From contig JAOTVS010000012.1 of assembly GCA_029863275.1 (NCBI GenBank), positions 1 to 40,681 of the forward strand: a stretch of DNA of 40,681 nt, in the 5' to 3' direction. Below, piece after piece: positions 1 to 34,629 of the stretch. How positions within the stretch are numbered: the first letter of the stretch is position 1; each line of letters starts with the position of its first letter. Origin of the DNA: Candidatus Nitrosopumilus sp. GTDB lineage: Archaea; Thermoproteota; Nitrososphaeria; Nitrososphaerales; Nitrosopumilaceae. The notes below the pieces were generated by a model. The model had not been told where the DNA came from and did no database searches. It saw only the letters and a program-made list of their open reading frames with translations. The position numbers and the translations under genes were made by a program.

Positions 1-939
1 TACACCAGTGTAGATACTAGCCTCTCTTGCTGCCACTGGCATGTTACTAGTATTTGCAACCAAAACAGTTCTATCCATTAGTGGTTTCCCAGTTCTTGGA
101 TCTTTGAGTTCTGGAAATTCAACAAGAACTTCGGTCATTTCATTTCCTCTCTCACCGCATCCGATGTAAACAACAACTTGGGAATCAGCCCACTTTGCAA
201 TTTGGTGTAGAGTTACCGTTTTCCCAGTTCCAAAAGCACCTGGTATTGAACCAGTTCCACCTTTGGCAATTGGGAAGAATGTATCAATAACACGTTGTCC
301 TGTTAAAAGAGGAACAGTAGGGTCATATCGTTTTAAGAATGGACGTGGTTTTCTAACAGGCCATTTGTGATACATCTTAAGAGGAATAGTTTGACCATCT
401 TTTTCAGTTACTGCCATTTCAGTTTCTAAATTATAATCTCCTTCACTTACGATAGTTGTAATTTTTCCACCTTTGTGATCAGGGGGAACCATAATAGAAT
501 GCTCGATCAAGTCTGTTTCTTGAACAGTGCCTATTACACTTCCAGCAGAAACTTCATCACCAACACTAACTGTTGGAACAAAGTGATAATTTTTAGTCAT
601 ATCTACGGGGGTCGTTGTAATACCTCTTCCAATGAAGGAACCTGAGGCTTTTGATAATTCTTTTAGCGGTCTTTGAATTCCGTCATAAATTTGTCCAATT
701 ATTCCTGGACCTAATAAAACACTAAGCGGATTTCCAGTGCCAATTACAGGCTCACCGGGTTTCAATCCACTTGTTGATTCATAGACTTGAATAAATGCAA
801 CATCTCCTGTAAGTCTAATAACTTCACCTACGAGTTTTGAATTTCCAACAGTGACAGTCTCATACATTTTTGCATCAGACATCCCATCTGCCCTAACAGC
901 TGGACCGCTTACCCAAACAATTCTACCTTGTGCTGCCAT
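1..939 (-). CDS. atpA: A/V-type ATP synthase catalytic subunit A, 3'-truncated by window edge
   Basis: This is the nucleotide-binding catalytic subunit of the archaeal A1A0 ATP synthase, which makes ATP on the cytoplasmic face of the membrane. I translated it by hand from the ATG at 939: 313 codons are open to the window edge, a little over half of the usual length of about 590. The N-terminal beta-barrel starts [15 protein letters not shown]. The bulge domain that separates A subunits from B subunits lies at about residues 110-200. The Walker A motif GAFGTGKT is at 234-241 and the CGERGNEM segment at 261-268. The ATG directly abuts the stop codon of the upstream subunit E gene, so the two are co-transcribed. 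Family assignment is certain; the C-terminal part is outside the window. Confidence 0.97.
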
Positions 940-1539
940 CTAGATACCTACTCCGAATTGGGTTGCAATGTCTTTCCTAATTAAAGGCTTCAATCGTTCA
1001 ATTTTAGCATCAAGAGTATTATCAAATGTCATAGCCCCATGTTTTGACTTTACTTTTACACCTCCGAGACAATCAATTGTTTCAGATGAAAGCTCAGCTC
1101 CTGGATATTGAGATAAAATAGATTGAACTGTTTCTTTATCTTTTGAATTTGTAAAAATAATGATTTCTGAAGTTCCCAAATTTTTGGTTGATTCGTCTAA
1201 AAGGGATTTTATTAAATTTGAATAATCTCCACTACGATCTTTATTTGCAATTTCTGCTACTGCCTTTGCAAACACTTTATGAATTGATTCTTCTACTGTC
1301 ATTAGCTGTTTGTTCCTGGCTTCAAGATCTGCGCTACCAATAATCTGTTTTTCAATTTTATCTGCCTCTTTCTTGCCATTAGAGATAATTTGGTCATATT
1401 CTTGACCCAATATGACATTCGAATCTTCCAGTTTTTGTTTAGATTCAGTTAGTGCTGAGTCAAGACTAGATAAAATATTTGATTCTGTTTGACCAAGAAT
1501 TTTATCGATAGTATGCTCTAGCGCAGAATCAGATACCAA
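940..1539 (-). CDS. atpE: A/V-type ATP synthase subunit E (peripheral stalk)
   Basis: Subunit E forms part of the peripheral stalk that holds the catalytic head of the A-type ATP synthase still. The 199-residue length fits the family. The N-terminal half is a long charged helix, rich in E, K and Q (about residues 1-95), which would be the coiled coil pairing with subunit H/G. The C-terminal half is a globular alpha/beta domain containing the typical LGGVKVKSKHG segment near residue 160. The reading frame opens with TTG; there is no in-frame ATG close by, so the exact start is uncertain. It is the first gene of the leftward ATP synthase operon and faces subunit I across an 82-bp gap. Confidence 0.93.
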   Translation of the reverse strand: MVSDSALEHTIDKILGQTESNILSSLDSALTESKQKLEDSNVILGQEYDQIISNGKKEADKIEKQIIGSADLEARNKQLMTVEESIHKVFAKAVAEIANKDRSGDYSNLIKSLLDESTKNLGTSEIIIFTNSKDKETVQSILSQYPGAELSSETIDCLGGVKVKSKHGAMTFDNTLDAKIERLKPLIRKDIATQFGVGI

Positions 1540-1621
1540 TGTGAGGCGTTGACTCGATAATAGATTTTAATGTTTGGGAACGATCAAATCAGAAAGATAT
1601 TAAAATCAAAGAAAAAGTCAC
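1540..1621. promoter_or_regulatory. Divergent promoter region between ATP synthase subunits E and I
   Basis: This 82-bp AT-rich gap must hold the promoters for both the leftward E-A operon and the rightward subunit I gene. Both genes appear to start with TTG. AT-rich stretches such as the one around 1561-1570 and the segment at 1597-1604 could serve as TATA boxes, but no box is clear enough to assign. Confidence 0.45.
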
Positions 1622-3730
1622 TTGATTATCTTGGCTACAGCCGATCTAAAACTTGGAACTGTTATTTTACCAAGAAGTGAATCTCCTAGAGCAATTTCCA
1701 GACTAACTGAATTTGAATGGTTTCATAAAATTGAAACAGACAATGATCTTGTAACTCCTGAAATCGATGATCTGCTTTTAGAAGCACAAAAATCCTTCCA
1801 GTCAATTGATGATGTGGTAAAGGGTCTAGGAATTCCACCAATTGTTGGAATTATGGAGATACTTTTCAAAGGCACTGTAATCAAAAAGAAAGATTATGAA
1901 GTTTATGAAATTGAAGATATGGTAAATTATCTTAAAGAGACTGCACCTTCAATTATTGACAAACCAGCTGAACTCTTAGAAGAGGCTGCAAATACTAAAT
2001 TGGCAATTGAGGAATTTACATCTCTTAAAGAAACCTTGGAAGTAGTCAAAAAAATGAAAATAGATTTGTCTGGATTTGGGTTAATGAAGTATTTTTACAC
2101 AAATCTTTTTGTTATCAATTCTTCAGACTTTGAGGAAATTAGCCGCTCCCTTGAGAATATTACCATTTACAAATATGATTTAGAGAATAAAGAAAAATCT
2201 GCTTTGTTAATAATTTCTGATTCAGAAGATTCCGAAAAAGTACTAAAGGTTCTTAGAAGTTTTAATTCAAATGTATTTACAATTCCACAAGGAATGCCTC
2301 AAATTCCAAGTGAAGCTTATGAAACAGCAACAACAAAAATAAAAGAATTAACAACAAAACAGGCTTCAATTAATAAACAAATTGCAGGAATTAAAAAAAG
2401 TCTTAGACGGGATATTTTATCGATTCACGAGAAGGCTCTTGTTGCAAAAGATGTTCTTGAAAGTTTAAGGAAACCTGGTGGAACTAAACATTTTGCAGTT
2501 ATTCAAGGATTTATCCCAAAAAAAATGGAAAACAAATTTCAGGATTCAACCAAACAATGGACATCAATTGTAGAGGAGGTAACTGATCCAAAATTAGTCA
2601 ACGAGTTACCAACCCTGTTTGATAATAAAAGATTCGTAAGAACATTTGAAGTGATTACAAAAAGTCAAGGAATTCCCAAGAAAGGAGAACCAGATCCAAC
2701 TCCGATGATTGCTCTAATGTGGCCAATCTTTTACGGATTAATGTTTGCAGATATGGGTCATGGTCTTTTGTTGATGGGATTAGGATTGTTATTCAAAGTT
2801 AAAGGAAAAGGTGATCTTTCAAGGTGGGGAATGTTAATTGCAATTTCTGGTGCATCAGCAGCTATAGCAGGTGTTGGTACCGGTGAGATGTTTGGATATC
2901 ACTTGGATCACATGGGCCCCTTTGAAGGTCTATTAGAAGAAGGAGGAGCACTTTATTCTGCAAGTTGGATTGTTGGAATTCTTTCTGTTGCAGAACTTAC
3001 ATTTGATCAAGTAATCAACATACTAAAAGTCTCATTATTCCTTGGAATTGTTCACCTAGTTTGGGCAATGGTTTTGAGGATGCAAAGATTAGCTCAAACT
3101 GGTCAAAAATTAGTGTTGTACATGGAGGCAATTCCAAATCTTACACTCTATGGAGGAATTGTTGTAATAATGATGTGTGCAATTGGTTCAAACTATGATG
3201 TGATGAATATGTATTCAAGAGTGCATACAGAAGCAGTCCCCTGGGTTACAGTTTTTCTAGGTGATTGGGCCCAAGTTTGGATTATTACGAGGATTGCAGT
3301 AGTTATTGTAATTGCATCAATGATTTTAATGATGGTAGGAGGAATTTTGCATGCAAAGAAACATCCCGAAGACGGAGGAGATCCTGCAAGTGTAGTAATG
3401 GAAGTATTTCTGGGAAAAACAGTTGAAAGTTTAGCTCATACTATTAGTTATGCTCGGTTAGGAATTATGCTGCTTGTTCACACGGCGTTATTATTGACTG
3501 TAAATAACGCATTTTCATCTTTAGGTGGTGCAGAATCTGGGGCAGCGATGGCTATGATTATTGGAGGAAACCTGGGAATAATGATGATCGAAGGATTGAT
3601 TGTGTATATCCAGTCACTCAGGTTGCATTTGTATGAATTCTTTACCAAGTGGTACGGTGATGGAGCACAACCATTTGCTCAACTTAGACAAGAATTAATT
3701 TACAATAATTTTATCTGGAAAAAAAAGTGA
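1622..3730 (+). CDS. atpI: A/V-type ATP synthase subunit I (membrane subunit a)
   Basis: Subunit I is the membrane stator subunit that provides the ion half-channels against the rotating c-ring. The 702-residue length fits the family. Residues 1-350 are a soluble, partly coiled-coil domain (many K/E-rich helices). From about residue 360 there are repeated hydrophobic helices, beginning with the conserved segment PMIALMWPIFYGLMFADMGH. The essential membrane arginine is expected in SYARLGIM (about R612), with a second conserved arginine in QSLRLHLYEFF (about R667). The frame opens with TTG at 1622; a second TTG lies nine bases downstream and no ATG is available near the conserved N-terminus, so a TTG start is likely. 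It is transcribed away from the E-A operon. Confidence 0.95.
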   Translation: MIILATADLKLGTVILPRSESPRAISRLTEFEWFHKIETDNDLVTPEIDDLLLEAQKSFQSIDDVVKGLGIPPIVGIMEILFKGTVIKKKDYEVYEIEDMVNYLKETAPSIIDKPAELLEEAANTKLAIEEFTSLKETLEVVKKMKIDLSGFGLMKYFYTNLFVINSSDFEEISRSLENITIYKYDLENKEKSALLIISDSEDSEKVLKVLRSFNSNVFTIPQGMPQIPSEAYETATTKIKELTTKQASINKQIAGIKKSLRRDILSIHEKALVAKDVLESLRKPGGTKHFAVIQGFIPKKMENKFQDSTKQWTSIVEEVTDPKLVNELPTLFDNKRFVRTFEVITKSQGIPKKGEPDPTPMIALMWPIFYGLMFADMGHGLLLMGLGLLFKVKGKGDLSRWGMLIAISGASAAIAGVGTGEMFGYHLDHMGPFEGLLEEGGALYSASWIVGILSVAELTFDQVINILKVSLFLGIVHLVWAMVLRMQRLAQTGQKLVLYMEAIPNLTLYGGIVVIMMCAIGSNYDVMNMYSRVHTEAVPWVTVFLGDWAQVWIITRIAVVIVIASMILMMVGGILHAKKHPEDGGDPASVVMEVFLGKTVESLAHTISYARLGIMLLVHTALLLTVNNAFSSLGGAESGAAMAMIIGGNLGIMMIEGLIVYIQSLRLHLYEFFTKWYGDGAQPFAQLRQELIYNNFIWKKK

Positions 3731-3798
3731 TTTTATCGCATAAAAAATCTATATCATAAAATTAAATTTAAAAAAATAATGTATAAAATTTTGAGTTT

Positions 3799-4575
3799 TT
3801 ATTTTTCAACTGGAAGATCTAAACGATTTCCCCATTCTCCCCATGAGCCAAGATATACTTGTACGTTCTCAAATCCTAATTTTTTTAATACCAAAAATGA
3901 GTTTGCAGCTCTATATGCTCCTTGACAATAAGTAACGATTTTAGAGTTCTTTGGAATATCATATAATTTTAACAATTCAGAATCATCTTTGAAAGATCCA
4001 TCTTCCTTTAGGTTGAGATTCCAATCAATGTTGATGGAATTTGGAATATGGCCACGCTGAGCTGCTCTCACTGTTGTTCCATTGTATTCTCCTTCAGATC
4101 TTGCATCAAGTATTGAAAGATTATCTATATTATCACGAATATTTTCAAATCCAGAAATAATGGAGGAATTAATTTTGCCAGAATATTGTGATGGCTCAAA
4201 GCTGTTTGGTGTGGTTTCAATTTTCATTTTATCTTGTCGCCATTTTTTCATACCGCCATTTAGCATTACAGTATCTGGATGTGAAAAATACATTAACATC
4301 CAAACTCCTCTGGCAGCTAACATTCCAGATACTTCATCATAAAAGACAATTTTTTTATCCTCAGTAACCCCAACAAATGAAAGTAGAATCTGGGTTTGTC
4401 TGTTGAAATTAGTGATACCTTCCTTTGAAGTATCAATCCAGTGGAAAGCAAATAGATCCAAATTTACTGCTCCGGGAATATGCCCTTCAGAGTATTCTTT
4501 AAATGAGCGGGTATCAATTATCAGGGTTTGTGAATCATTCAAAATTGAATTCAGTTCTGTGGTTGAAATTAGCAT
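3799..4575 (-). CDS. sseA: Sulfurtransferase with two rhodanese domains
   Basis: This enzyme moves sulfane sulfur from thiosulfate or 3-mercaptopyruvate to an acceptor such as cyanide or a protein thiol. The protein has 258 residues and two rhodanese-like halves. The first (about 5-105) carries IIDTRSFKEYSEGHIPGA with no cysteine loop. The second (about 150-255) carries ILDARSEGEYNG and the active loop TYCQGAYRAA with catalytic C217, followed by the family C-terminal signature LGSWGEWGNRLDLPVE. The gene sits alone on the minus strand, downstream of subunit I (convergent) and of the Amt gene (same strand, 69-bp gap). The loop composition does not decide between thiosulfate and mercaptopyruvate as donor. 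The gene symbol is a family-level label. Confidence 0.9.
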   Translation of the reverse strand: MLISTTELNSILNDSQTLIIDTRSFKEYSEGHIPGAVNLDLFAFHWIDTSKEGITNFNRQTQILLSFVGVTEDKKIVFYDEVSGMLAARGVWMLMYFSHPDTVMLNGGMKKWRQDKMKIETTPNSFEPSQYSGKINSSIISGFENIRDNIDNLSILDARSEGEYNGTTVRAAQRGHIPNSINIDWNLNLKEDGSFKDDSELLKLYDIPKNSKIVTYCQGAYRAANSFLVLKKLGFENVQVYLGSWGEWGNRLDLPVEK

Positions 4576-4644
4576 GTTTAGGGTAAATATTTTGAAGGTA
4601 AAATGATTTGGATTGAAAAATAAAAAGAAAAGAAAAGTGATTTT

Positions 4645-6210
4645 CTATTCGTTTACGTATGCTCTTTCTCCGTGCTGTGCCAAATCGAGACCAATCTCCT
4701 CTTCTTTTGGAGTGACTCTGATTCCGCCAGGCCAAACGGCATCCATTACTTTTAGGATTACAACGGTAACACCAAATGCATAAGCCACTGAGACAAATGC
4801 TGCGATGATGCTAATTGCTTGCTGTTCCATACCTTCTGCTGTACCAGTCCATGCGCCTATACCATCTCCGGTATCCCAGACGTGTGGGCTAGCTAATGTA
4901 CCAGTCAAAATTGCACCAGTAAGACCACCCATTCCGTGTACTCCCCATACATCTAATGCGTCGTCCCATTTACGGGCATTCTTGAATGATATACTTGCAT
5001 AACAGATAGTTCCAGCTGCAATACCGATAATTATAGCTGCCATAGGACCAACCCAACCAGAGGCTGGTGTGATTGCTACTAAGCCTGCTACTGCACCTGA
5101 AGCTGCTCCTACAACACTTGGTTTTCCTGTATGTGCCCAGGATACTAATATCCAAGTAACTGCAGCCATGCCTGTTGCGGTATTTGTAACAGTCCATGCG
5201 CTTACGGTAATGCCGTCTACCATTACTTCACTTCCTGCATTGAAACCAAACCATCCAAACCATAGTATTCCTGCTCCGAGGACAACCATTGGAATGTTGT
5301 GTGGCTCCATTGGCACTTTGCCATATCCTAATCTTCTACCTAGGATCAAGGCTCCTGCCAATGCAGAAAATCCTGAAGAAATGTGTACAACAGTACCACC
5401 TGCAAAGTCTAATGCATACGATGGTGATAGTTCTGGATCAAGGTCTAATGCACCTCCTCCTATGAAACCACCTCCCCAGACCCAGTGTGCTATTGGATCG
5501 TAAACGAAGGTTCCCCATATGAGTACGAATATGACCAATGCGCTAAACTTCATTCTGTCAATTAATCCACCAATGATTAGAACTGGTGTAATGATTGCGA
5601 ATGTAGCTTGGAACATTGCAAATAACTGATGTGGAACTGTACCAGGCCAACCTTGACTACAATAGTCGCCTTCCTTAAATTCATTCATTTGGTACGCGGC
5701 TGACCATGTGTCATGACATGGGCCTACTTCACCTAATGGTGCCCATGCTGATACCATGTTGAAGCCTGCATAATCAAGACTTCCCATGAATAAATTGGCC
5801 CCTTCATCTGCGTTTGGTGCAAATGCTAACGAATATCCCCATAGGATCCATTGTACTGACATTAACCCCATAACTACAAGGGTCATACCAAGTACGTTTA
5901 CGATATTCTTTGATCTGGCTAGACCGCCATAAAAGAATCCGACTCCTGGAGACATCAATAGTACCATTGACGTTGCGGTAAGCATCCATGCTGTATCACC
6001 TGTATCGATCATACATGGTAGATAGCCACCTTCGCCGTCATCATACCAACATTCGTTAGGGTTACCGGTGTAAATTCCACTGGTTCCTTTAACATATCCA
6101 TCCATACCATCGTCAACACTTTGGGCAAATGCTTGTGACATTGCCCCAGTTGCTGTAATGGCTACTGCGGCCACAAGTAATAGAGCATACTTGTGGTTCC
6201 TAGAATTCAT
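4645..6210 (-). CDS. amt: Ammonium transporter, Amt/MEP/Rh family
   Basis: This is an inner-membrane ammonium channel supplying substrate for ammonia oxidation and nitrogen assimilation. The 521-residue protein begins with a signal sequence ending in AFA at residue 29, then about 11 membrane helices. Typical motifs are GVGFFYGGLARSKN, the phenylalanine-gate region FAMFQATFAIITPVL, the first pore histidine in GGTVVHISSG and the second in GVHGMGGLTGAI. The extracellular N-terminus is extended, with two cysteines (ECWYDD, YLPCM), as in other thaumarchaeal Amts. Its position beside ATP synthase genes recalls the Amt2 locus of Nitrosopumilus maritimus, which is a memory-based inference. A TATA-like box at 6231-6238 lies about 25 nt upstream of the ATG, which suggests a leaderless mRNA. 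Confidence 0.97.
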   Translation of the reverse strand: MNSRNHKYALLLVAAVAITATGAMSQAFAQSVDDGMDGYVKGTSGIYTGNPNECWYDDGEGGYLPCMIDTGDTAWMLTATSMVLLMSPGVGFFYGGLARSKNIVNVLGMTLVVMGLMSVQWILWGYSLAFAPNADEGANLFMGSLDYAGFNMVSAWAPLGEVGPCHDTWSAAYQMNEFKEGDYCSQGWPGTVPHQLFAMFQATFAIITPVLIIGGLIDRMKFSALVIFVLIWGTFVYDPIAHWVWGGGFIGGGALDLDPELSPSYALDFAGGTVVHISSGFSALAGALILGRRLGYGKVPMEPHNIPMVVLGAGILWFGWFGFNAGSEVMVDGITVSAWTVTNTATGMAAVTWILVSWAHTGKPSVVGAASGAVAGLVAITPASGWVGPMAAIIIGIAAGTICYASISFKNARKWDDALDVWGVHGMGGLTGAILTGTLASPHVWDTGDGIGAWTGTAEGMEQQAISIIAAFVSVAYAFGVTVVILKVMDAVWPGGIRVTPKEEEIGLDLAQHGERAYVNE

Positions 6211-6337
6211 TGTTTTAATCGAAATTGAAAATTATATAAGGGTTAAGACAACAAAATTGGTAAAAAAGTAAATTATTATATTTTAGTATATTTTGATAGT
6301 ATCATAGAAATTGAAAATTATGTTATGGTGTGAATGA
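6211..6337. promoter_or_regulatory. Divergent promoter between amt and a putative regulator, with a 15-bp direct repeat
   Basis: A TATA-like element (ttatataa, 6231-6238 region) faces the amt start. The 15-bp sequence gaaattgaaaattat occurs twice in the same orientation, at 6221-6235 and 6307-6321. One copy overlaps the amt TATA box and the other lies just upstream of the 6338 gene. This arrangement fits a binding site for a regulator acting on both genes, but AT-rich DNA can also give such repeats by chance. Confidence 0.45.
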
Positions 6338-7006
6338 ATGAAGGTAAAATCAACCACAAAATTATCGATATTTGACACCTTCAAGACTAAGGACAATAGT
6401 CTTACCGGTGAGGCAAAGAGACAGAGATCCATCATACATATCTTATCAAGTAATGCAAATCCTGCAGAAAGGACAAGAACTGGTATATCTCAAAAAATTG
6501 CCAAAGGTCAAGGAAATATCTGGAAGAATATTTACTCTGGAATTTTCAGGGATCTTGATGAGATTTTGCTTCCCATGGGTATTGCAGAAGAAGACGGCAG
6601 ATTGCCTCTAAAACGTGGTCCCAAGGCCCTGCAGGAAATAGGGATTCCTTTTTACCATTTAACCAGAAAAGGGGTTTTAATTGCTCTTTCAATAAAGGAA
6701 GTGGAAAACAAAGAAAAATTACTAAAGGAATTTTTCTTAGAAGGAAATCCCAATGAGAAAAGTTTTGAAAAAATTTTAATTAATTTATCTCGCACTAGTC
6801 CAAATTTTACTTATTCAATTTTTCAAAAATATGTAAAGGCATTTTGTGATGATGAAATTGCAGAACTACTTCCATTTGATTTCTCAAAACTAAAAAATAT
6901 CTCAGATGAATCGTTGATTATTCAAAAAGAGATTATAGAGGCATTTTTGAAACTATCAAAGCAGGAAAAAGATGAGGCCATAAGGCTGCTCAACGAAATT
7001 ACCTGA
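6338..7006 (+). CDS. Conserved-looking protein of unknown function, possible winged-helix protein
   Basis: I do not recognise a named family. The 222-residue product is soluble and basic at its N-terminus. Residues 20-115 look like a helical DNA-binding-type domain: SNANPAERTRTGISQKIAKG resembles the lead-in helices and YHLTRKGVLIALSI (about 105-118) resembles the third helix and wing of winged-helix proteins. The remainder is helical (FEKILINLSRTSPNFTYSIF and an EIIEAFLKLSKQEKDEAIRLL C-terminus). It is divergent from the ammonium transporter gene across a 127-bp region holding a direct repeat, so a role in controlling amt is conceivable. That role is inference from position only. Confidence 0.75.
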   Translation: MKVKSTTKLSIFDTFKTKDNSLTGEAKRQRSIIHILSSNANPAERTRTGISQKIAKGQGNIWKNIYSGIFRDLDEILLPMGIAEEDGRLPLKRGPKALQEIGIPFYHLTRKGVLIALSIKEVENKEKLLKEFFLEGNPNEKSFEKILINLSRTSPNFTYSIFQKYVKAFCDDEIAELLPFDFSKLKNISDESLIIQKEIIEAFLKLSKQEKDEAIRLLNEIT

Positions 7007-7071
7007 AAATTGAGTTATTTACGAATGAATCGCCAAACATTAAAATCAGTTATGCAATAAGGCTTATCGAA

Positions 7072-8109
7072 ATGGGTTCAAAGAATGTCTATGCTTCTGT
7101 AAAGTCTTACAGCAAAAGAGGAAAACTACTAAAAAAAGCCGATTTCCAAACATTGTCTGAATCTAGGGATTTGGAGGAATTGATGACTAGAATCAAAAAT
7201 ACGATTTATGGAGATTCAATTTCTGATGTTCAAAAACCATATACTTCTCAGAAAATTGAAAATGCCCTAAGAGGGCATTTAGCTGATGTTCATTATTCCA
7301 TATCTAAAACATCTGGAGATAAAATCATCTTTAATGCATATTACATGAAATTTATTATTTCCAACCTAAAATCAGTACTAAAGGGAAAAGTTTTAGGAAA
7401 ATCTCAAGAAGAAATTGAATCTCATATCAATCTTCATGCTGAAGAACTTATCAAACAACGAGATATTGTGGTTAAGGCGTTGGTTGCAAAAGATTTGGAG
7501 GAGACAGTCGCAAGTTTAAGCTCTGGGAAATTTGGAGAAGAGATTGCCAAAGCTGCAGCACTTTATAATGATAAAAAGAATATCCAGATTTTTGACCTTT
7601 ATTTTGATAAAATTTTGTATCAACAGTTGGGACTTGCAATTAAAAATAGTCGAGAAACAGAAGTTACAAAATTGATTGGGATGGATATTGATTTTTATAA
7701 TTTACTAAGTGTAATTAGAGGAAAATTCTGGGGTCTAGAAGAAGATCAAGTCAATGATTTGATTGTATCAGCTACTCCGAGTGCATCAAAGGAATTACTT
7801 GGTAGAATGATAAGTGCGGCAACAATTAGATATGCTTTTAACGAATTAACTACCACTAGATACAAGAGTCTTATTCCAGAAGCTGAAAATGAATTGGATG
7901 CAATAGCAGAATTTGAAAGGGCTTTTGAATTAGAAATTTATCAATCCTCGTTGAGATCATTTACAAAAATGTTCAGTTTTGCAACAATCATCGGTATTAC
8001 AAAATTGACCGCTTTTGAGGTAAGAAACTTGGCAGCTATTGCTTATGCAGTGGAGCAAAAAATCCCTACTGAAATTACAATGTCCAAACTGATTCTTGAA
8101 GAAGATTAA
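7072..8109 (+). CDS. atpC: A/V-type ATP synthase subunit C (central stalk/c-ring coupling)
   Basis: Subunit C (AC39/d family) is the funnel-like protein that couples the central stalk to the membrane c-ring of the A-type ATP synthase. The 345-residue length is typical. The N-terminal YASVKSYSKRGKLLKKADFQTL segment matches the opening of the family, followed by three repeated helical bundles, with the conserved DFYNLLSVIRGKFWGL (about residues 204-219) and the C-terminal FATIIGITKLTAFEVRNLAAIAYA helix. It is separated from the other ATP synthase genes by the rhodanese, amt and 6338 genes. The gene starts with ATG 65 bp after 6338. Confidence 0.92.
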   Translation: MGSKNVYASVKSYSKRGKLLKKADFQTLSESRDLEELMTRIKNTIYGDSISDVQKPYTSQKIENALRGHLADVHYSISKTSGDKIIFNAYYMKFIISNLKSVLKGKVLGKSQEEIESHINLHAEELIKQRDIVVKALVAKDLEETVASLSSGKFGEEIAKAAALYNDKKNIQIFDLYFDKILYQQLGLAIKNSRETEVTKLIGMDIDFYNLLSVIRGKFWGLEEDQVNDLIVSATPSASKELLGRMISAATIRYAFNELTTTRYKSLIPEAENELDAIAEFERAFELEIYQSSLRSFTKMFSFATIIGITKLTAFEVRNLAAIAYAVEQKIPTEITMSKLILEED

Positions 8110-8117
8110 GCCCCAAA

Positions 8118-8351
8118 ATGGTTAACTCTCCTAACAAAAAGAAAATTCCTGCTGAAGTAATAATTAATACAATCTGGATTAGTACTTTTTTAGCAATGAT
8201 TTTCACAATTCCAGCCTTGAGTCTTTTTCTCGGAATTTATTATAGTACAGGAAATCTTGTGCTAGGTGCAGTGCTAGGATTTAGCACTCATTTTGTGACC
8301 CTAGCCTTCTCGGGCAGAATATCAAGATTTCTAACCAAAATTATGAATTAA
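8118..8351 (+). CDS. Small membrane protein, unknown function
   Basis: This 77-residue protein starts 8 bp after the ATP synthase subunit C stop codon, so it is likely co-transcribed with it. A short basic N-terminus (residues 1-12) is followed by two hydrophobic helices, at about 15-40 and 47-65, joined by a short loop with YYSTGN. The C-terminus is basic (GRISRFLTKIMN). The helices lack the conserved carboxylate in the second helix expected of a c-ring subunit, so I do not call it subunit K. Function unknown; the operon position hints at, but does not show, a link to the ATP synthase. Confidence 0.7.
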   Translation: MVNSPNKKKIPAEVIINTIWISTFLAMIFTIPALSLFLGIYYSTGNLVLGAVLGFSTHFVTLAFSGRISRFLTKIMN

Positions 8352-8384
8352 TCTATAAGGATCATCATAATTAGTTGATTTATC

Positions 8385-9032
8385 ATGATGGGTGATAGAG
8401 ATTTCAGGAACACTATTAAAAATGCAGTCGACTCGATTGGTAGAGAATTAGAAATAGAGATCGATGCAGATGATTTTAAAACCATAAATCTAACAGAGGT
8501 AGTTCAATGTTTACGACGATCTTATTATGATAGAATTGATCCAAAGGAAATTCAACGAAGGGGATTCAACGATCTTTTAAGTGGATTACTTCGAAAATTA
8601 GAATATGGCAGTAAATCAAAAAAGTTTAAAATTGATGATGTTATTTTAAAGGGCCAAGCAGACATGATGGTGGATGATAATATCATCTTGTTTAGACCAA
8701 GTCATACTACTCCCGAATCTCCACATGCAGAAGATCTACTGTATCTCAATGCCTGTTTGTGGATTTATGATAAAACTGATGGAATGATAATTTACATTAC
8801 AAGTGATAGAGAAGAGTTTACTTTTTCATTAACTCGTGATAAAAAAATGTTTGAAGAAGTAATTAGACGAGTTAGAGTTCTAAGTGATCTTCTAAGTGAA
8901 CAAAAAACTCCAATTTTAGAGCCCTCCCACAATTGTTTGGATTGCCAATATTACGAAAGATGTTTTATCAAGAAAAATACCTCAAAACAACTCTCGTTAT
9001 CTGAAATGCTAGGATTATCAAAAGAAAATTAA
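8385..9032 (+). CDS. Cas4-like (RecB/PD-(D/E)XK superfamily) Fe-S protein with degenerate active site
   Basis: The 215-residue protein has the four cysteines that bind the [4Fe-4S] cluster in Cas4/AddB-type nucleases: C42 in VVQCLRRSYYDR, and C184, C187 and C193 in CLDCQYYERC (C-x2-C-x5-C). The upstream part of the nuclease core is visible as GQAD (D93). The E-x-K step that should follow is replaced by ILFRPS (about 101-106), and the expected QLxxYxxLL helix reads DLLYLNACLWIYD. There is no CRISPR array or other cas gene in the window. It may be a structural Fe-S or DNA-end-binding protein rather than an active nuclease. The family call rests on cysteine spacing and motif order. Confidence 0.75.
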   Translation: MMGDRDFRNTIKNAVDSIGRELEIEIDADDFKTINLTEVVQCLRRSYYDRIDPKEIQRRGFNDLLSGLLRKLEYGSKSKKFKIDDVILKGQADMMVDDNIILFRPSHTTPESPHAEDLLYLNACLWIYDKTDGMIIYITSDREEFTFSLTRDKKMFEEVIRRVRVLSDLLSEQKTPILEPSHNCLDCQYYERCFIKKNTSKQLSLSEMLGLSKEN

Positions 9033-9065
9033 ATTAAAAATATTGTAAAGGAAAAATTCCTTTGG

Positions 9066-9176
9066 TTAATCTAGTGGTTCTGGATGTCCTTTACCACGTA
9101 ATGCAAAGCATACAACTGCTAATGCAATTGCAACTCCTGCTGCTGCGCCAAATGCGGCCATACCTGCTTCTGCCAT
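9066..9176 (-). CDS. 36-residue single-helix membrane micro-protein
   Basis: The frame starts ATG at 9176 and encodes 36 residues: an acidic MAEAG start, an alanine-rich hydrophobic helix (about residues 6-26, AAFGAAAGVAIALAVVCFAL) and a short tail RGKGHPEPLD. The composition (regular Ala/Gly, one Cys, a clean positive-inside RGKG flank) looks selected rather than random, and the gene has its own AT-rich upstream region. It is too short for a two-helix c-ring subunit. A small subunit of a membrane complex is the likeliest kind of role. I do not recognise it. Confidence 0.6.
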   Translation of the reverse strand: MAEAGMAAFGAAAGVAIALAVVCFALRGKGHPEPLD

Positions 9177-9240
9177 TTGATAAAAAACATCTCTAGGGGC
9201 TTTTATAACTTTGTCAATATATTTATCCTAAAAACAAATT

Positions 9241-9264
9241 ATCATAATTTTCAAATTTTATGAT
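9241..9264. repeat. Inverted repeat in the promoter region of the 36-residue membrane peptide
   Basis: atcataa at 9241-9247 and ttatgat at 9258-9264 form a 7-bp inverted repeat (8 bp with the flanking t/a) around a 10-nt spacer. It lies 65 bp upstream of the micro-protein start and 21 bp downstream of the stop codon of the next minus-strand gene. It could be an operator or a transcript-end hairpin. Confidence 0.35.
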
Positions 9265-9284
9265 ACAATATTATAATGGTTGTC

Positions 9285-9830
9285 TTACAGCGTAGATTCA
9301 AAATGAACTTCGTTTTCTTGTCCACTAGTCATCGAACTGAGATTAAAAATAACGTCCCCTTCAGCTCTCCATATTTGATCATTGTTCTCAAGAATGAGCA
9401 TTAATTCTGGATCATTTCCTGGAAATTCGAGAGTTATTTTATCTTTCAATACAATGGAATTGTTGCTAAGTAACGTATAGTAATTAGATCCATCTACCAT
9501 ACCTTCTGGCCTACTTCCAATTTGACCCGAAGCAATTTTGAGTTCTTCGGATCCATTTACTGCGTATAATGAATATTGTAAAAGCTGAGCAATTACAGAT
9601 CGAGCGTTTGGATTATCGAGTTTGAATTGAATTTCAAGGACTGCTGCTCTATCTGTAACTTGCAGAATTGAAACTTCTTCTAAATTAATCGAAATTGGTT
9701 CTACTTGATTTGGCAGTTCTTGAGAAGAACCACCATCAAAAGTATCACTTGTAGAGGTCATCGTGAAAATAACTCCTAATATTCCTGCCAAAATGACAAT
9801 TGCGGCAACCACAAAAATTTTAGGGTTCAA
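9285..9830 (-). CDS. Membrane-anchored LEA14/WHy-like domain protein
   Basis: The 181-residue protein starts with a single hydrophobic helix (about 5-25, FVVAAIVILAGILGVIF) that acts as a signal anchor, followed by a Ser/Thr-rich linker and an extracellular domain. That domain contains the pattern of the LEA14/WHy (water stress) beta-sandwich: EVSILQVTDRAAVLEIQFKL, then DNPN at about 73-76, a Tyr-containing strand, and an IASGQIG turn. These domains are found in small stress-related and surface proteins; the molecular role is not defined. The gene stands alone between two oppositely oriented regions. The domain call is by pattern only. Confidence 0.6.
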   Translation of the reverse strand: MNPKIFVVAAIVILAGILGVIFTMTSTSDTFDGGSSQELPNQVEPISINLEEVSILQVTDRAAVLEIQFKLDNPNARSVIAQLLQYSLYAVNGSEELKIASGQIGSRPEGMVDGSNYYTLLSNNSIVLKDKITLEFPGNDPELMLILENNDQIWRAEGDVIFNLSSMTSGQENEVHFESTL

Positions 9831-9900
9831 TAAAATAACATAACTCCATGATATCTTAAATGTTGAGATAGTTATTATACCATTATAAAGAAAAATTATT

Positions 9901-10257
9901 GTGCAATATTTTCAGGCAGTACAACAAGGGAAAATTCGAGCTAGTAAATCTCAAATGAAATTATTTGAAGTGGCCGGATTTGGAATGCTTACACTTACAA
10001 CAAAAAAAATAGATGGGAAATTCTTTCCTGTTGGTGAAGAAGACTTTACAGCAGTGATACAATCCGAAAGCGGGTATGTTGCAGTAATTGTAGATAAAGA
10101 TGGTTTTACCAAAGCACAATCAAAAGCAGTTGAAAAAAAAGAAGCGCTGGGAATTTTTAAAAAATTAAGAGAATCAGGAATGCCTGAATATCCAAAACCT
10201 GGTATTAAAATTTGGACTGAAGACCGTCCTGCTATTCAAAATGAATCTGAAGAATAA
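9901..10257 (+). CDS. Protein of unknown function
   Basis: This is a 118-residue soluble protein with a GTG start at 9901. No in-frame ATG lies near the N-terminus and the preceding DNA is AT-rich, so GTG is the likely start. The sequence suggests a compact alpha/beta fold: an opening helix (FQAVQQGKIRASKSQMKLFE), beta strands around FGMLTLTTKKIDGKFFPV, a strand YVAVIVDKDGF and a helix with KAVEKKEALGIFKKLRESG. There is no signal peptide, cysteine or catalytic signature. The last genes are convergent: only 4 bp separate its stop from the UMP kinase stop. I do not recognise the family. Confidence 0.75.
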   Translation: MQYFQAVQQGKIRASKSQMKLFEVAGFGMLTLTTKKIDGKFFPVGEEDFTAVIQSESGYVAVIVDKDGFTKAQSKAVEKKEALGIFKKLRESGMPEYPKPGIKIWTEDRPAIQNESEE

Positions 10258-10261
10258 TTTT

Positions 10262-10939
10262 TTAAGGTAGAGTTATTTTTGTTCCTACGTCTGCACCTTT
10301 AATAGCTTTTTCGATAATTTTGATATCTGCCTTTAAAATTCGTGTATTTATTTTTGATCTTTCAATAATTTTTAACGCAACAATATCCATCAAATCATAT
10401 CCTCCAGCGATAGAATCTTCGTGAACTAACATATTTTTTAGATTTTTTAATTCAATTCTTTTGAATTTTTTTGCTTTTTTGTATTTATTGGGATCCATAT
10501 CATATACTCCATCTACGTCCGTTGCATTAAGGAATTGTTCAGCTTTAATCTTTTCGGCAATTAATGCAGCTGTTCCATTAGTACTTTGACCAGGATGCAG
10601 ACCCCCAGTTACAACAATCAAACCATCATCAACAGCATGTTTTACTTCCTGTAAGGTCGTAGGCGGATGTGAATATGCCTTGTTTTTTAGGGCATAAATC
10701 AAAAGTTTTGCATTTAGTCTAGAAATTTCTATTCCAAGTTCATCTAAGGTTGATTCATCAGCTCCTGAAGATCTTGCGTGAGAGATATAATGTCGGGCAA
10801 TGTTTCCTCCACCTGCAACTACAATTGGTTGGCAGATCTTACTTATTTTAACTAGAAATGTAGCATAATCTTTTAGGAGTTTAACATTATCCATACCAAA
10901 AATTCGTCCGGATAGTTTTATCACAATTCTTGTTTTCAT
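10262..10939 (-). CDS. pyrH: UMP kinase (archaeal type)
   Basis: The enzyme phosphorylates UMP to UDP with ATP in pyrimidine nucleotide synthesis, in the cytoplasm. The 225-residue length matches archaeal UMP kinases of the amino acid kinase family. Visible motifs are the N-terminal IKLSGRIF lysine loop, the [10 protein letters not shown] glycine loop (about 43-52), the [20 protein letters not shown] segment (about 111-130) and [16 protein letters not shown] (about 137-152), which binds the nucleotides. It is the last gene of a three-gene leftward cluster with an HD phosphohydrolase and thymidylate kinase; its start codon shares one base with the upstream stop (TAATG). Confidence 0.93.
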
Positions 10940-12174
10940 TATTTTAAGTCATTCAAGATTGATTTTGCGGCAATTTCAACTTTTTTTCTGCTTTTTTGAG
11001 GTGTGTATATTCTTAAAATATTCATAAATCCTGATATTGCAGAAACTACAGGAAGTTTTGAGATGGGCATTTCTTGAGCCTGTGCTTTTCCATTTTCATT
11101 TGTAGTTAGAATAATTTGCTTTGACTCTTTTTTAGAGGGTGCTAATGGAATTGAAGGAGTAACAGAACTATCAACAAAGATTTCATTTTCATCAACTTTG
11201 GATTTTTTGGAAAGAGATGAACGTAATTCGTTTGTTTTAGTCTTTTCTAATAATGTCTTGCTAGTTAAAATTCTCTCATAAACACATTTTAGTAATTTTC
11301 TATTTTGGTAGTCTTTGGCAAATTGTCTTGCTCTTTTTAGTTTTGGTGACAGTGAGGAAAGAATCATGGACAATACATATTCATCGGTGAGTTTGACAAA
11401 TTCGTCAATTTTAAAGGAAGTAAACCCAAACTCATCATCCGATAATCTTAATGCTTCTAATAGCATTACTTCTGCTGATCTTACAGTTTTATGAAAATAA
11501 ACTGCTTTGAACATTTGATATCTAGAATGCATCATGGATTCAAAAGAGTAAAGTGCAGATTTTTCTAAAGCTAGCTTTTTCTTGTGAACATCAAGTGATT
11601 GTGTAAGTCTTTTGTGGTCAATCTTTGCATGTTCTGCACCAGTAAAATAACCATCACGTAACAAATAATCCATCATGTCTGCACTTAGATATCCTGAGAC
11701 AATTTCATTTAGGTATTGATATTTTGAATCACCAAAAGCTATATCGGAAATTAATTTTTTGTCATAACCGTTCTTTGTTAATATGTCGCCAATCACCGAT
11801 TTAAGAATAAGGTTTTTACCAAAATCCTCATGAGAGATTTTTTTTTTCTGAATTATTTCCTCAAAAAGATGCGAAAACGGTCCATGACCTATATCATGTA
11901 AAAGTCCTGCAACTCTAAGAACTTCTATATCGTGAGATTTTAAAACCTCTTTTTCTTTTAATGCTTGTCCAGCTTGACTTGCAATATGCATTACACCAAG
12001 AGAATGCTCAAACCTAGTATGTTGAGCCGATGGATATGTAAGATGAGCTCCGGAAAGTTGCCTAATTCTTCTTAATCTTTGAAAAATTGGATTATCTATA
12101 ATTTCAAGTTCGTGATCGTAAACTCGAATAAAATCATGAATTGGATCGATAATATCAGAATAATTTTTTTTCAT
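10939..12174 (-). CDS. HD-domain phosphohydrolase, dNTPase/SAMHD1-like
   Basis: Proteins of this family hydrolyse dNTPs or related phosphate esters. Over 411 residues, the metal-binding HD set is complete: H57 in [12 protein letters not shown]93-D94 in [12 protein letters not shown], and a later aspartate in [16 protein letters not shown] (about 160-175). This Y-x-x-R-D-like segment is characteristic of SAMHD1-type dNTP hydrolases. Residues 310-375 are a Ser/Lys-rich linker that looks disordered, and the C-terminus may be a small extra domain. It lies between thymidylate kinase (4-bp ATGA overlap) and UMP kinase (1-base overlap), which supports a role in adjusting deoxynucleotide pools. The exact substrate is not readable from the sequence. 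Confidence 0.85.
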
Positions 12175-12752
12175 AATCCTATTTTTTTAGAGAAAGATTT
12201 CAAAATTTCTTCATGAACTACTTCTTTTGATTGAGATGCATCAATAATCTCCCACCGTTGTTTCTTTGCAGTATCTCGATAAATTTTTGATATTTTCATT
12301 AAAAATGCTTTATTTTTTTCAAACTTATCACGCTTTGTTTTCTTTCTATGAAATGATTCCTTTTGTGATACATCGAGTAAAATTACCATATTGGCCTTTG
12401 GGAGACCAGAATCTAAATTTTCTAACCATTTCTGTTTCAACCCATTTGCAAGTCCATAAACTAAATTAGACTGATAGTATCTGTTCATTATTACAACAGA
12501 ATTTTTTAATTGTGCTTGTAAAATTTGGTCTAGTTTTTCCCATCTATTTGCTGCTAAAAGACAATGAATTGTTTGGGGAGGAAATTTTCTCTTCCCGCTA
12601 AGATATTTCGCAATTTCTTTGCCTAGAGGAGTGGAATAATCAGGAAAGCTAAAGGTTGTAGTCTTTATTTTTCTTTTTTTCAAGGCTCTCAGTAATAGTC
12701 CAGTCTGGGTTTTTTTTCCCGCTTGATCACCACCTTCTATTACCACAATCAT
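12171..12752 (-). CDS. tmk: Thymidylate kinase
   Basis: The enzyme phosphorylates dTMP to dTDP. The 193-residue length fits. The P-loop is at residues 6-15, EGGDQAGKKT, against the usual E-G-x-D-G-x-G-K-S/T: the third glycine is alanine and the residue before the final Thr is Lys. The DR(Y/H) region is present as VVIMNRYYQSNLVYG (about residues 87-101), with N instead of D before R. The LID region is KKTKRDKFEKN (about 138-148), rich in basic residues. It is the first gene of the leftward nucleotide cluster and overlaps the HD phosphohydrolase by 4 bp. The altered P-loop and NRY motif deserve attention but are still compatible with function. Confidence 0.9.
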   Translation of the reverse strand: MIVVIEGGDQAGKKTQTGLLLRALKKRKIKTTTFSFPDYSTPLGKEIAKYLSGKRKFPPQTIHCLLAANRWEKLDQILQAQLKNSVVIMNRYYQSNLVYGLANGLKQKWLENLDSGLPKANMVILLDVSQKESFHRKKTKRDKFEKNKAFLMKISKIYRDTAKKQRWEIIDASQSKEVVHEEILKSFSKKIGL

Positions 12753-12827
12753 AACTTAACAATCCATTGAAATTAATTGATTAAAAATCTATCAAGATAC
12801 TGACAAGTCTGTTACAAACACCGAGGC

Positions 12828-12992
12828 ATGAATATCAAAAACATGTCAGTGATGGCCAAATCAAAAAAATCAGTAAATCTTACTGAAAATATTTACCAAC
12901 GTGAAAAATGGATTGTAAAATTAATACAAACTGCAAAAAAGGAACTATCAGCTGAAAATTACGCCCTTTTTAGACCCACCCCTCATGACTAG
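12828..12992 (+). CDS. Short ORF, possible 5' fragment of a tyrosine recombinase
   Basis: This 54-codon frame starts ATG at 12828 (or ATG at 12852). The central part, ENIYQREKWIVKLIQTAKKE followed by LSAENYALF, looks like the N-terminal SAM-like helices of archaeal tyrosine integrases. It stops at 12990 just where a linker should follow, and an overlapping frame reads MTRIGAKVSQFRLL from 12985, which could be the continuation after a frameshift. No catalytic domain follows. It may be a decayed integrase 5' end or an independent small protein. The match is from memory of family patterns and is weak. Confidence 0.35.
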   Translation: MNIKNMSVMAKSKKSVNLTENIYQREKWIVKLIQTAKKELSAENYALFRPTPHD

Positions 12993-13020
12993 GATAGGCG
13001 CAAAAGTGAGCCAGTTTAGA

Positions 13021-13221
13021 TTACTTTTTGGAAATTTTACCTCTCATCCAATTAGGGTCAGATCTTCTCCTTCGCCATCTTTCTTCAGGTAAAAAATCAA
13101 ACAGGATGTCTGATTTTATGGTTGCAAAGAAAAACCACTCGCTCTCACAATGTCTGCATGCTCTATCTTCTCTGCATTTTTTTGAGAGTCTCATTGCAAA
13201 ATAATATCGCCATTCCTTCAA
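13021..13221 (-). CDS. Small basic Cys-containing protein, uncertain
   Basis: A 66-codon frame on the minus strand starts with ATG at 13221. It contains CREDRACRHC (three cysteines within about residues 16-25), an aromatic stretch EWFFFATIKSDILFDFLPEERW, and a very basic tail WRRRRSDPNWMRGKISKK. The residue mix, with clustered Trp and Arg and CxxC-like spacing, is unlike a random shadow frame, and no gene occupies the opposite strand here. A small nucleic-acid-binding or zinc protein is possible. It could also be spurious. Confidence 0.4.
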   Translation of the reverse strand: MKEWRYYFAMRLSKKCREDRACRHCESEWFFFATIKSDILFDFLPEERWRRRRSDPNWMRGKISKK

Positions 13222-13263
13222 GGAAGTTATTTCCTAGAATAGGATTTAATGAAATGGTTATTT

Positions 13264-13421
13264 TGAAATTATTTTTTTGGAAAGGATGAAAATTAAATCA
13301 AATAAAGAGCACTTTTAAGATTTATTATTATCATAAATTCATAATTTTTAATGATATTCTATTTTTATGATCATATTTTATGAATACGCGGGTTCTTATA
13401 GCCAGCAACAAACAAAGATTA
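13264..13421 (+). repeat. Duplicated promoter and leader, copy 1
   Basis: This stretch is an imperfect copy of 14094-14249. The best-conserved core is 13368-13418 against 14195-14245: tgatcatattttatgaatac, a three-base difference, then ggttcttatag and, after a few differences, aacaaacaaaga. In this copy the ATG at 13380 opens a frame that runs into the secreted-protein gene. In the other copy the same ATG opens a nine-codon frame that stops. The alignment puts the real start of the downstream gene at 13422. Confidence 0.7.
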
Positions 13422-13793
13422 ATGAATAAATCATTAACAATCACTGCAATCACATTGATTGCAGTAGCTATGGGATTTAGCGCAATAGCTCCGGCAATTG
13501 CAGTCCCAGCAACAGTTCAAGGACTCAACAGTGGTGCACTGGATCACAACGGTGCTATTGTTCCAGTTGAATGCCATGAAGTTATTGCCAACAATGCAAA
13601 AGCAAAAGGCACACTAACTTGTACTGGAACAGCAACTGAACCTTTCCCTGATAAAGCAGTGAAGATGAATACTGATGACAATTCCTTGTTCCCAGGAGTA
13701 CTTTGTGGCACAACATCACAAGGCGCAACTGCTGACTGGCAAACTGTAATCACACCAAGTGGAAACTTGAAACTCGTATGTCACTTTCCATAA
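13422..13793 (+). CDS. Small secreted protein of unknown function
   Basis: From the ATG at 13422 the product has 123 residues. Residues 1-27 are a signal peptide (MNKSLTITAITLIAVAMGFS, then AIAPAIA as the cleavage region). The mature part of about 96 residues is hydrophilic with four cysteines (one each in VECHEV, LTCTGT, VLCGTT and LVCHFP), which could form two disulfides outside the cell. The frame is open from 13380, but comparison with the duplicated leader at 14195-14250, where the upstream ATG frame stops early, favours 13422 as the start. There is no C-terminal anchor. A T-rich tract after the stop looks like a terminator. Function unknown. Confidence 0.7.
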   Translation: MNKSLTITAITLIAVAMGFSAIAPAIAVPATVQGLNSGALDHNGAIVPVECHEVIANNAKAKGTLTCTGTATEPFPDKAVKMNTDDNSLFPGVLCGTTSQGATADWQTVITPSGNLKLVCHFP

Positions 13794-13796
13794 GTG

Positions 13797-13811
13797 ATTT
13801 TTTTCTTTTTC
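13797..13811 (+). terminator. T-rich transcription terminator candidate
   Basis: A run of T interrupted by C begins three bases after the stop codon of the secreted-protein gene. Archaeal termination uses such U-tracts, which aCPSF1 (encoded at 37731-39668) is known to act on in other archaea. Confidence 0.5.
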
Positions 13812-13870
13812 TAAATCCCCACGTCACATAATCTGAGTTATAATATGGATTAGTAGGACTTTTGACCCTG

Positions 13871-13920
13871 AAAAGTGGGGGTACTCTTTTTACTGAGAGT
13901 CGATAAACTCGTTAACACTT
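13871..13920 (+). repeat. Dispersed repeat, copy 1 (about 50 bp)
   Basis: This segment matches 34580-34629 on the same strand. From 13884 to 13920 the two copies differ at three of 37 positions (ctctttttactga, then agtcgataaact, gtta and cactt). Each copy lies about 80-150 bp downstream of a secreted-protein gene. Similarity is weaker but visible for about 45 bp upstream. It is either a small mobile or repetitive element, a conserved 3' RNA element, or a fragment of a once-shared gene. Confidence 0.65.
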
Positions 13921-14040
13921 CTATGAACCCCTCAAACCAATATGATCAAATCCAGAAAACCTCTACTGTTCTAAAAATTTGAAAAATAATTTTGGAGTCT
14001 TGACCAAAACACAAAGTCCCTTTGACGGCTTTGTAATCGC

Positions 14041-14082
14041 ATTGCTGGAGTAATCTTGGTAAGGTTTAGAGCAACAGAATAA
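14041..14082 (+). other. Orphan C-terminal membrane-anchor fragment
   Basis: This frame reads IAGVILVRFRATE and then stop, matching the anchor end ([12 protein letters not shown]) of the surface protein at 31918-32799. The upstream frame has no plausible start. It is not in frame with the secreted-protein gene at 13422. It is best read as the remnant of a lost surface-protein gene. Confidence 0.5.
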
Positions 14083-14093
14083 TTCTAGTGATC

Positions 14094-14249
14094 AAAATTA
14101 TTTTTTTGAAAGGAAAAAAAGTAAATCAAGTAAAGAACACTTTTAAAATTTAAAATCGTCATAAGTTAAAAAATCTAAATATATTATTTTATTGTGATCA
14201 TATTTTATGAATACATCGGTTCTTATAGGCAAGTAACAAACAAAGACTA
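14094..14249 (+). repeat. Duplicated promoter and leader, copy 2, with a nine-codon leader ORF
   Basis: Imperfect copy of 13264-13421. Within the conserved core, ATG at 14207 opens a nine-codon frame (MNTSVLIGK) ending with TAA at 14234-14236, whereas the first copy stays open. The core ends just before the TTG at 14250, which aligns with the ATG at 13422. Confidence 0.65.
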
Positions 14250-14396
14250 TTGAAAACTCAAACAAAACCTGCAAGTAGATGGAATATGATGGTGCATGCA
14301 CCATTTAAAAAAATTATCAAGTTTGATTTGATTTGTATGGGACTTGGTCTTGTAATGGGAATTGGTATTGGCGCCTTTTTGGTTTCAGGAATCTAA
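14250..14396 (+). CDS. Small membrane protein behind a duplicated leader
   Basis: The 48-residue frame starts with TTG at 14250, the position that aligns with the start of the 13422 gene in the duplicated leader; ATGs at 14283 and 14286 are alternatives. A polar N-terminus (KTQTKPASRWNMMVHAPFKK) is followed by one hydrophobic helix at about residues 25-47 (LICMGLGLVMGIGIGAFLVS). This is the pattern of a small inner-membrane subunit or regulator. The upstream region is a copy of that of the secreted-protein gene at 13422, so the two may be expressed together. No family recognised. Confidence 0.55.
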   Translation: MKTQTKPASRWNMMVHAPFKKIIKFDLICMGLGLVMGIGIGAFLVSGI

Positions 14397-14603
14397 ACAT
14401 ATCCTCAAAATGATCTGATCATTCAAAAATAGACTAGAAATGGTTTAACATAAATGGTTCAACTAATACACATGTCAAAATTTCCATATGCTTTCTGAGG
14501 AGATTTTGACCAAACTTACAACCATATGAAATAATATTTTAAAAAAAGATCTAAAGTAAACTTTTAAAATTATTTTTAGGATTAGGTGTTATCTAAAACC
14601 CAT
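14397..14603. other. Intergenic region with no recognisable feature
   Basis: AT-rich DNA between the small membrane protein and the convergent 59-residue ORF. I see no convincing frame, repeat or structured RNA here. Confidence 0.4.
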
Positions 14604-14863: not shown

Positions 14864-14929
14864 TATGGTCAAATTAGAGGAGTTGCAGGTACTGTAGCAT
14901 ATCTGGTAAAGTTTAGAGTTAGAACATAG
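14864..14929 (+). other. Orphan C-terminal membrane-anchor fragment
   Basis: The frame ends GVAGTVAYLVKFRVRT and then TAG, matching the hydrophobic helix plus K-F-R tail of the surface protein at 31918-32799. The segment tatctggtaaagtttagag is also nearly identical at DNA level to 32869-32887 and 33776-33794. No start codon or complete gene precedes it. Confidence 0.5.
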
Positions 14930-32829: not shown

Positions 32830-32901
32830 ATGGTATCAGCAGTAGCTGGTATTTTTGGTGGTGGAGTATATCTGGTAAAGTTTAGAGCCAAGAAGAAATA
32901 A
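32830..32901 (+). other. In-frame second copy of the C-terminal anchor after the stop
   Basis: The sequence encodes MVSAVAGIFGGGVYLVKFRA, then KKK and a stop. It lies 30 bp beyond the stop codon of the surface-protein gene, in the same reading frame, with no stop between them. It aligns with the gene's own anchor ([19 protein letters not shown]). It is a tandem duplication of the 3' end, or the trace of an exchanged anchor. Readthrough of one stop would give a protein with two anchors. Confidence 0.6.
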
Positions 32902-33754: not shown

Positions 33755-33808
33755 GACCATGTCGGTATTGGAGTATATATGGTAAAGTTTAGAGTAAATG
33801 GAAATTAA
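33755..33808 (+). other. Anchor remnant in frame downstream of the Hcp-like gene
   Basis: The frame reads DHVGIGVYMVKFRVNGN and stops at 33806-33808. It is in frame with the Hcp-like gene, separated from it by two stop codons (33710-33712 and 33749-33751). In between, the Hcp frame reads LSLIPT, recalling the IPTVAG lead-in of the intact anchor. This looks like a membrane anchor that the Hcp-like gene lost. Confidence 0.55.
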
Positions 33809-34503: not shown

Positions 34504-34579
34504 CACAAATTCCGTTTAACTTCTTTCCAACAAACAAACTCACGTTATGTCTTAGGTTATGGCGCAGTTTTCACGCCTG

Positions 34580-34629
34580 ATGAGGAGGGGTTCTCTTTTT
34601 ACTGACAGTCGATAAACTTGTTAGCACTT
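34580..34629 (+). repeat. Dispersed repeat, copy 2
   Basis: This is the second copy of the sequence at 13871-13920, on the same strand and 100 bp downstream of a secreted-protein gene. In the best 37 bp only three positions differ. It sits in a 260-bp gap that otherwise shows no gene. Confidence 0.65.

Follow-up and report, generated by a model that had tools for sequence, protein, structure and literature searches.

Two small genes behind homologous upstream segments

The window, the whole 40,681-nucleotide stretch of DNA analysed, contains two mutually unrelated small genes, gene 1 and gene 2, each preceded by a copy of the same segment (Table 1). In whole-genome searches with each copy as the query, positions 13266-13440 and 14095-14265 were 81% identical (E values 8.7e-37 and 8.8e-37), and a repeat search placed copies 1 and 2 in the same register with a spacing of 827-828. 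The homology spans about 158 bp, from approximately 13264 and 14092 up to the start codons, in agreement with the original prediction, which had recognised about 155 bp of homology upstream of two unrelated small genes and had set the two starts at equal positions; counted from the start of the core, ATG 13422 lies at 54 and TTG 14250 at 55, so that the starts align within one base, and the core of copy 2 has one G more than that of copy 1. Identity between the copies is uneven, with identical columns numbering 32 of 36 over the core (13368-13402), 16 of 19 over 13403-13421 and 28 of 42 in the spacer. The 20-base core sequence, TGATCATATTTTATGAATAC, had exactly two exact matches in the 1.76-Mb genome; a third core-like place (C57:4198), with three mismatches, is at chance level for this genome, as a backwards control also gave one match.

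Table 1. Positions of the genes and of the putative regulatory features in the window
Feature	Position	Strand	Basis or remark
Putative promoter copy 1, before the secreted-protein gene	13264..13421	+	81% identical to copy 2; taken as the derived copy, absent at the gene 1 paralogue on C49
Upstream conserved box, TAAAGAGCACTTTTAAGATT	13303..13322	+	Over 13303-13325, 16 of 23 columns are the same in both window copies and G095
Dyad TCATA-TTT-TATGA, putative operator; right arm contains the leader ATG	13371..13383	+	Read from the sequence
Leader frame of copy 1, in frame with gene 1; judged not translated	13380..13421	+	No conserved residues in relatives; ATG lost in G095
TATA-like box, TTCTTATA, with TTATA at -26 of ATG 13422	13393..13400	+	Position as in the 48-residue family
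Gene 1; its 123-residue protein begins with a stretch resembling a signal peptide (judged by eye)	13422..13793	+	Paralogue C49:48978-49337
Putative promoter copy 2, before the 48-residue gene; taken as the ancestral place	14092..14249	+	Homologous to the upstream region of the orthologous gene in G095
Upstream conserved box of copy 2, TAAAGAACACTTTTAAAATT	14131..14150	+	Repeat and three-copy comparison
Dyad TCATA-TTT-TATGA of copy 2	14198..14210	+	Sequence identical to that of copy 1
Nine-codon leader frame of copy 2; judged spurious	14207..14236	+	ATG 14207, TAA 14234-14236
TATA-like box, TTCTTATA, with TTATA at -27 of TTG 14250	14220..14227	+	Position as in the 48-residue family
Gene 2, 48-residue single-helix protein (helix judged by eye), TTG start	14250..14396	+	Matches in family genomes; ATG in the G095 orthologue

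The protein of gene 1 shares 64% identity over residues 1-123 with its paralogue in the same genome (E 2.3e-46). Of the other 249 genomes searched, 5, belonging to two other genera, gave weaker matches that cover residues 1-38 only. All of these alignments start at Met 13422 except one, which starts at residue 4. A search of protein families with gene 1 gave sub-threshold matches only. The DNA homology between gene 1 and the paralogue begins at 13422 (13422-13810 in blastn), and upstream of its gene the paralogue has DNA unrelated to copy 1. The equal start of the two genes is therefore the point at which the homology of copies 1 and 2 ends and that of gene 1 and its paralogue begins. The original prediction had moved the start of gene 1 to 13422 and had named conserved residues encoded by 13380-13421 in its orthologues as grounds for rejecting this; no such residues were found in the paralogue or in the relatives from the five genomes, whose upstream translations share nothing, and we adopt the new start. 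A separate observation concerns the signal-peptide region, which is nearly the same in secreted proteins with unrelated mature parts (L073-L079 and window 13422-13530), and in two of them also at the DNA level (75-76% over 96-114 nt, E 4e-11 and 1e-16).

Gene 2 belongs to a family of 48-residue proteins with matches in 99 of the 250 family genomes (E<=0.01), and its TTG start at 14250, as first proposed, stands: the orthologue in a genome of the same genus, G095, has ATG at exactly this position. Searches of Pfam and NCBIfam, and of PDB up to an E value of 1, gave no match to the 48-residue protein, and two of its relatives had no match above the Pfam cut-off. Members of the family cluster elsewhere, for example with three matches within 1.2 kb in genome G032, suggesting that local duplication is not unusual for this family. 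One shortened member (G000:C94:7579-7662, L131), 39 residues long by the start rule and with part of the helix missing, sits behind an intact Shine-Dalgarno sequence. In other genera, an 18-base palindrome, GTMAGCTN4AGCTKAC, precedes 48-residue genes (L046, L048, L060, L189-L194 and others); among the 20 genomes searched, 13 contain exact sites, 31 in all, of which 24 are located no more than 130 nt ahead of a gene of this family, and at several sites an ORF starts 34 nt away on the opposite side. The palindrome looks like the operator of a small regulon, with ORFs nearby that resemble a universal stress protein and an HTH regulator; G000, G063 and G095 contain no exact or one-mismatch site.

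The surroundings of the two copies are rich in other elements. The left edge of copy 1 (13265-13289) is formed by an element, GAAATTATTTTTTTGGRAAGGATGA, which is also present in same-genus genomes and in one or more other genera, several times just 3' of an ORF stop, and resembles a terminator or 3' element. On the minus strand, divergent from copy 1, a Cys- and Arg-rich 66-residue ORF (13021-13221; CREDRACRHCESEW) could encode a small zinc-binding protein and could share its upstream region with copy 1. A repeat, GGAGTATATCTGGTAAAGTTTAGAG, is present at 14041-14085, 14888-14929, 32857-32901 and 33764-33808; the genome has 14 copies of it with up to three mismatches, against none in the control. 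It encodes GAGVYLVKFRA, a tail resembling a C-terminal anchor; elsewhere it ends long ORFs, open for 186-319 residues upstream at L152, L155, L157, L168 and L171, and in the window it stands alone between genes, as if its copies were the remaining 3' ends of lost surface-protein genes. In addition, a dispersed intergenic element around TTTTTACTGAGAGTCGATAAACTCGTTAACACTT lies at 13867-13920 and 34576-34629, with 13 matches in the same genome and up to 17 in same-genus genomes.

Further copies and conserved elements

The original prediction had called for a search for further copies of the core in related genomes. We located a single homologous copy, in G095, which precedes the orthologue of gene 2 (80% identity by blastn with 14132-14400). 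A search of a wider contig collection for the core gave two matches, the G095 contig and an Oscillospiraceae contig without wider similarity. In viral contigs, 18 matches to a 17-base AT-rich pattern were judged to be due to chance: they scored 36-46 in wider alignments, in which the G095 contig reached 79 and the two window copies, aligned with each other, 100. A search for a related motif in the 250 family genomes matched 12 genomes, five of the matches being upstream regions of genes resembling gene 1. The sequence AATACAGCGGTGATTTTATGA before such genes in two other genera was considered as a distant homologue of the core; it may be merely a TATA box at an equal distance, and its likeness to the core was not used as evidence of homology.

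Among the three copies compared, two of which are from one genome, conservation peaks over the dyad and the TATA-like box (27 of 36 columns), whereas 21 of 42 columns are conserved in the spacer. The box at -26/-27 is the only match to TTATA, TATAA, TTTAAA or TTTATA within 100 nt before either start; G095 has GATATAAC in place of TTCTTATA. Inspection of the sequence revealed no Shine-Dalgarno sequence before 13422 or 14250, so that two features of a leaderless promoter are present, namely a TATA-like box some 26 nt ahead of the gene start and the lack of a Shine-Dalgarno sequence. The copy 1 region contains two 5-3-5 dyads compared with a shuffled mean of 0.57, and such dyads arise by chance in AT-rich DNA.

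The position of the TATA-like box was compared with that in the 48-residue family. Gene starts were accepted if an in-frame ATG lay nine or more residues ahead of HAPF, if the upstream DNA extended for at least 130 nt and if a short conserved motif had at most five substitutions, leaving 56 distinct upstream regions; seven of these carry GAGGTG(A) before the ATG and form a separate promoter class. The other 49, which lack this sequence, together with the window TTG gene, which was added by hand, gave 50 regions, reduced to 36 after dropping those at least 75% identical over the last 60 nt. Start codons were assigned by a fixed rule, which probably placed at least one of them (L068) too far downstream. 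With the pattern [CT]TAT, picked after the family sequences had been viewed, a match starting at -31..-24 was found in 26 of these 36 non-redundant promoters, the window included, against a mean of 5.9 and a maximum of 15 in 2000 shuffles. TATA-like words also peaked at -30..-25 (19, compared with 3-9 in the other 6-nt bins) when 194 upstream regions of a general set were examined; the count at -31..-24 in this set, 22, was not above mononucleotide shuffles (mean 18.2, sd 4.1), which makes the support from the general set weak, and an EM search for a TATA motif in the 194 regions did not converge on a clear motif.

The original prediction had also described an ATG in the segment whose frame enters the gene in copy 1 and ends after nine codons in copy 2. 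These frames are as described, and the ATG lies at -42/-43 from the gene starts. From the conservation of the core before differing genes, the segment had been proposed to be a selected regulatory leader, possibly translated. Our comparison retains the conserved regulatory segment, and neither the leader nor its translation. Specifically, the homologous stretch in G095, TTTTAGGAATAC, has AGG in place of the leader ATG with the surrounding bases kept, and four of nine codons differ between the two frames of the window, with three of the four differences being non-synonymous; start codon and frame are not conserved among the homologues as control by a leader peptide or upstream ORF would lead one to expect. 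Folding of the putative leader RNAs of the three copies was no better than that of shuffles (z -0.53, 0.96 and 0.29), an Rfam scan of the window at gathering thresholds gave no match, and the sole TTATA-type box within 100 nt of either start is downstream of the leader ATG. The short frame is probably an accident of promoter sequence and not translated, and these comparisons give no sign that a peptide or an RNA is under selection in the leader.

Interpretation of the duplicated segment

We consider it likely, judging from sequence comparisons, that the two stretches represent a single core promoter, present twice together with the regulatory DNA upstream of it, and not an mRNA leader. TBP and TFB would bind TTCTTATA; because TTATA lies at -26/-27, the usual spacing of an archaeal TATA box from the transcript start, transcription would start no more than a few bases from ATG 13422 and TTG 14250 and yield leaderless mRNAs. 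The dyad, the box at -119..-100, or both may bind a regulator, and the leader ATG would be a part of the dyad that is never transcribed. As to its origin, the promoter of the 48-residue gene may have been duplicated and a secreted-protein gene related to that on C49 joined, at its start codon, to one of the copies, which would place the two genes under common control today. Copy 2 is taken as the ancestral place because the single copy in G095 precedes the same gene, and duplication with capture would explain both the switch of homology at the start codon, where the similarity of copies 1 and 2 fades and that of gene 1 and its paralogue starts, and the unrelated region upstream of the paralogue. 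Counting against this interpretation, a TTG start on a leaderless mRNA is expected to be weak, G095 has a sequence other than TTCTTATA, the known copies number three, two of them from one genome, and the box at 13303-13322 is also conserved; this box is possibly a regulator site and possibly a second TATA box.

Were it a second TATA box, a leader of 80 nt would exist and the earlier leader idea would be revived. This alternative, which we regard as unlikely, supposes that a TATA box at 13311-13318 (CTTTTAAG/A) gives rise to a genuine 5' leader some 80 nt long, whose short ORF would influence how the following gene is translated: in copy 1 the two would be fused, and in copy 2 termination would be followed by reinitiation. 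It is consistent with the conservation of the CACTTTTAARATT box in all three copies and with the presence of ATG 13380 and its frame in both window copies, but is opposed by the AGG in G095, the predominantly non-synonymous codon changes, the lack of a Shine-Dalgarno sequence before either start and of an RNA fold signal, and a TATA-like box at -26/-27 as in the 48-residue family. Alternatively, the similarity may be neutral, the result of a recent tandem duplication in a rearranging region whose second copy has not yet decayed; gene 1 would then be silent or under the control of another site. The segment does lie among dispersed repeats and gene remnants, and copy 1 is known from one genome only, but the identity of the window copies is highest over the putative promoter core and gene 1 is intact beside copy 1, and we find this distinctly unlikely. 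A structured regulatory RNA common to the two genes, riboswitch-like or cis-acting, would account for a conserved segment before two different genes, but the Rfam and folding results make it highly improbable.

If the duplicated-promoter interpretation is right, two annotations would be corrected (the start of gene 1 at 13422 and the easily missed TTG start of the 48-residue gene) and a false leader peptide would be removed; the locus would also provide a small natural experiment, with one promoter before two unrelated genes and a relative without the duplication to set beside them. It further draws attention to an unnamed family of small membrane proteins with a common promoter architecture in many related archaeal genomes. 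A further idea, which we hold to be doubtful, is that in these archaea, many of whose genes seem to lack a leader, genes for secreted and small membrane proteins have interchangeable 5' cassettes, a promoter cassette ending at the start codon and a signal-peptide cassette starting there. In that case, the promoter of the 48-residue gene would have been joined to a signal-peptide module common, at the DNA level, to secreted proteins of other genera that are otherwise unrelated, and a cell-surface gene would have been put under the control of the regulator of the 48-residue gene.

Comparison with known systems

Control by an upstream ORF or leader peptide works by attenuation or reinitiation. 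The segment resembles such systems in having a short ATG frame before the gene, but differs in that the ATG and frame are unconserved and lie upstream of the TATA-like box. Duplication of a promoter and its capture by an unrelated gene is a general mechanism, and the proposed event in the window is alike in that one promoter would have been copied before a second gene and joined at the start codon; it differs in that no intermediate genome reveals the breakpoints or the donor of gene 1. Among the titles listed in a literature search, none pointed to an archaeal case of promoter duplication or capture, and in the literature searched there was no start-site or transcript map for Nitrososphaeria.

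Leaderless mRNAs make up 72% of the protein-coding transcripts in Haloferax volcanii (PMC4983044) and, as cited in the same paper, 69% in Sulfolobus solfataricus. Compared with archaeal TATA/BRE leaderless promoters as mapped in Haloferax volcanii (PMC4983044) and Saccharolobus solfataricus (PMC11698992), the window segments are alike in having a TATA-like box at a fixed short distance and no Shine-Dalgarno sequence; unlike those mapped promoters, their transcript start is deduced from the sequence. The original observation is confirmed and its interpretation is half right, as the kept regulatory segment and the corrected starts stand, with a promoter rather than a leader, and the locus is a new instance of known things, ordinary in kind.
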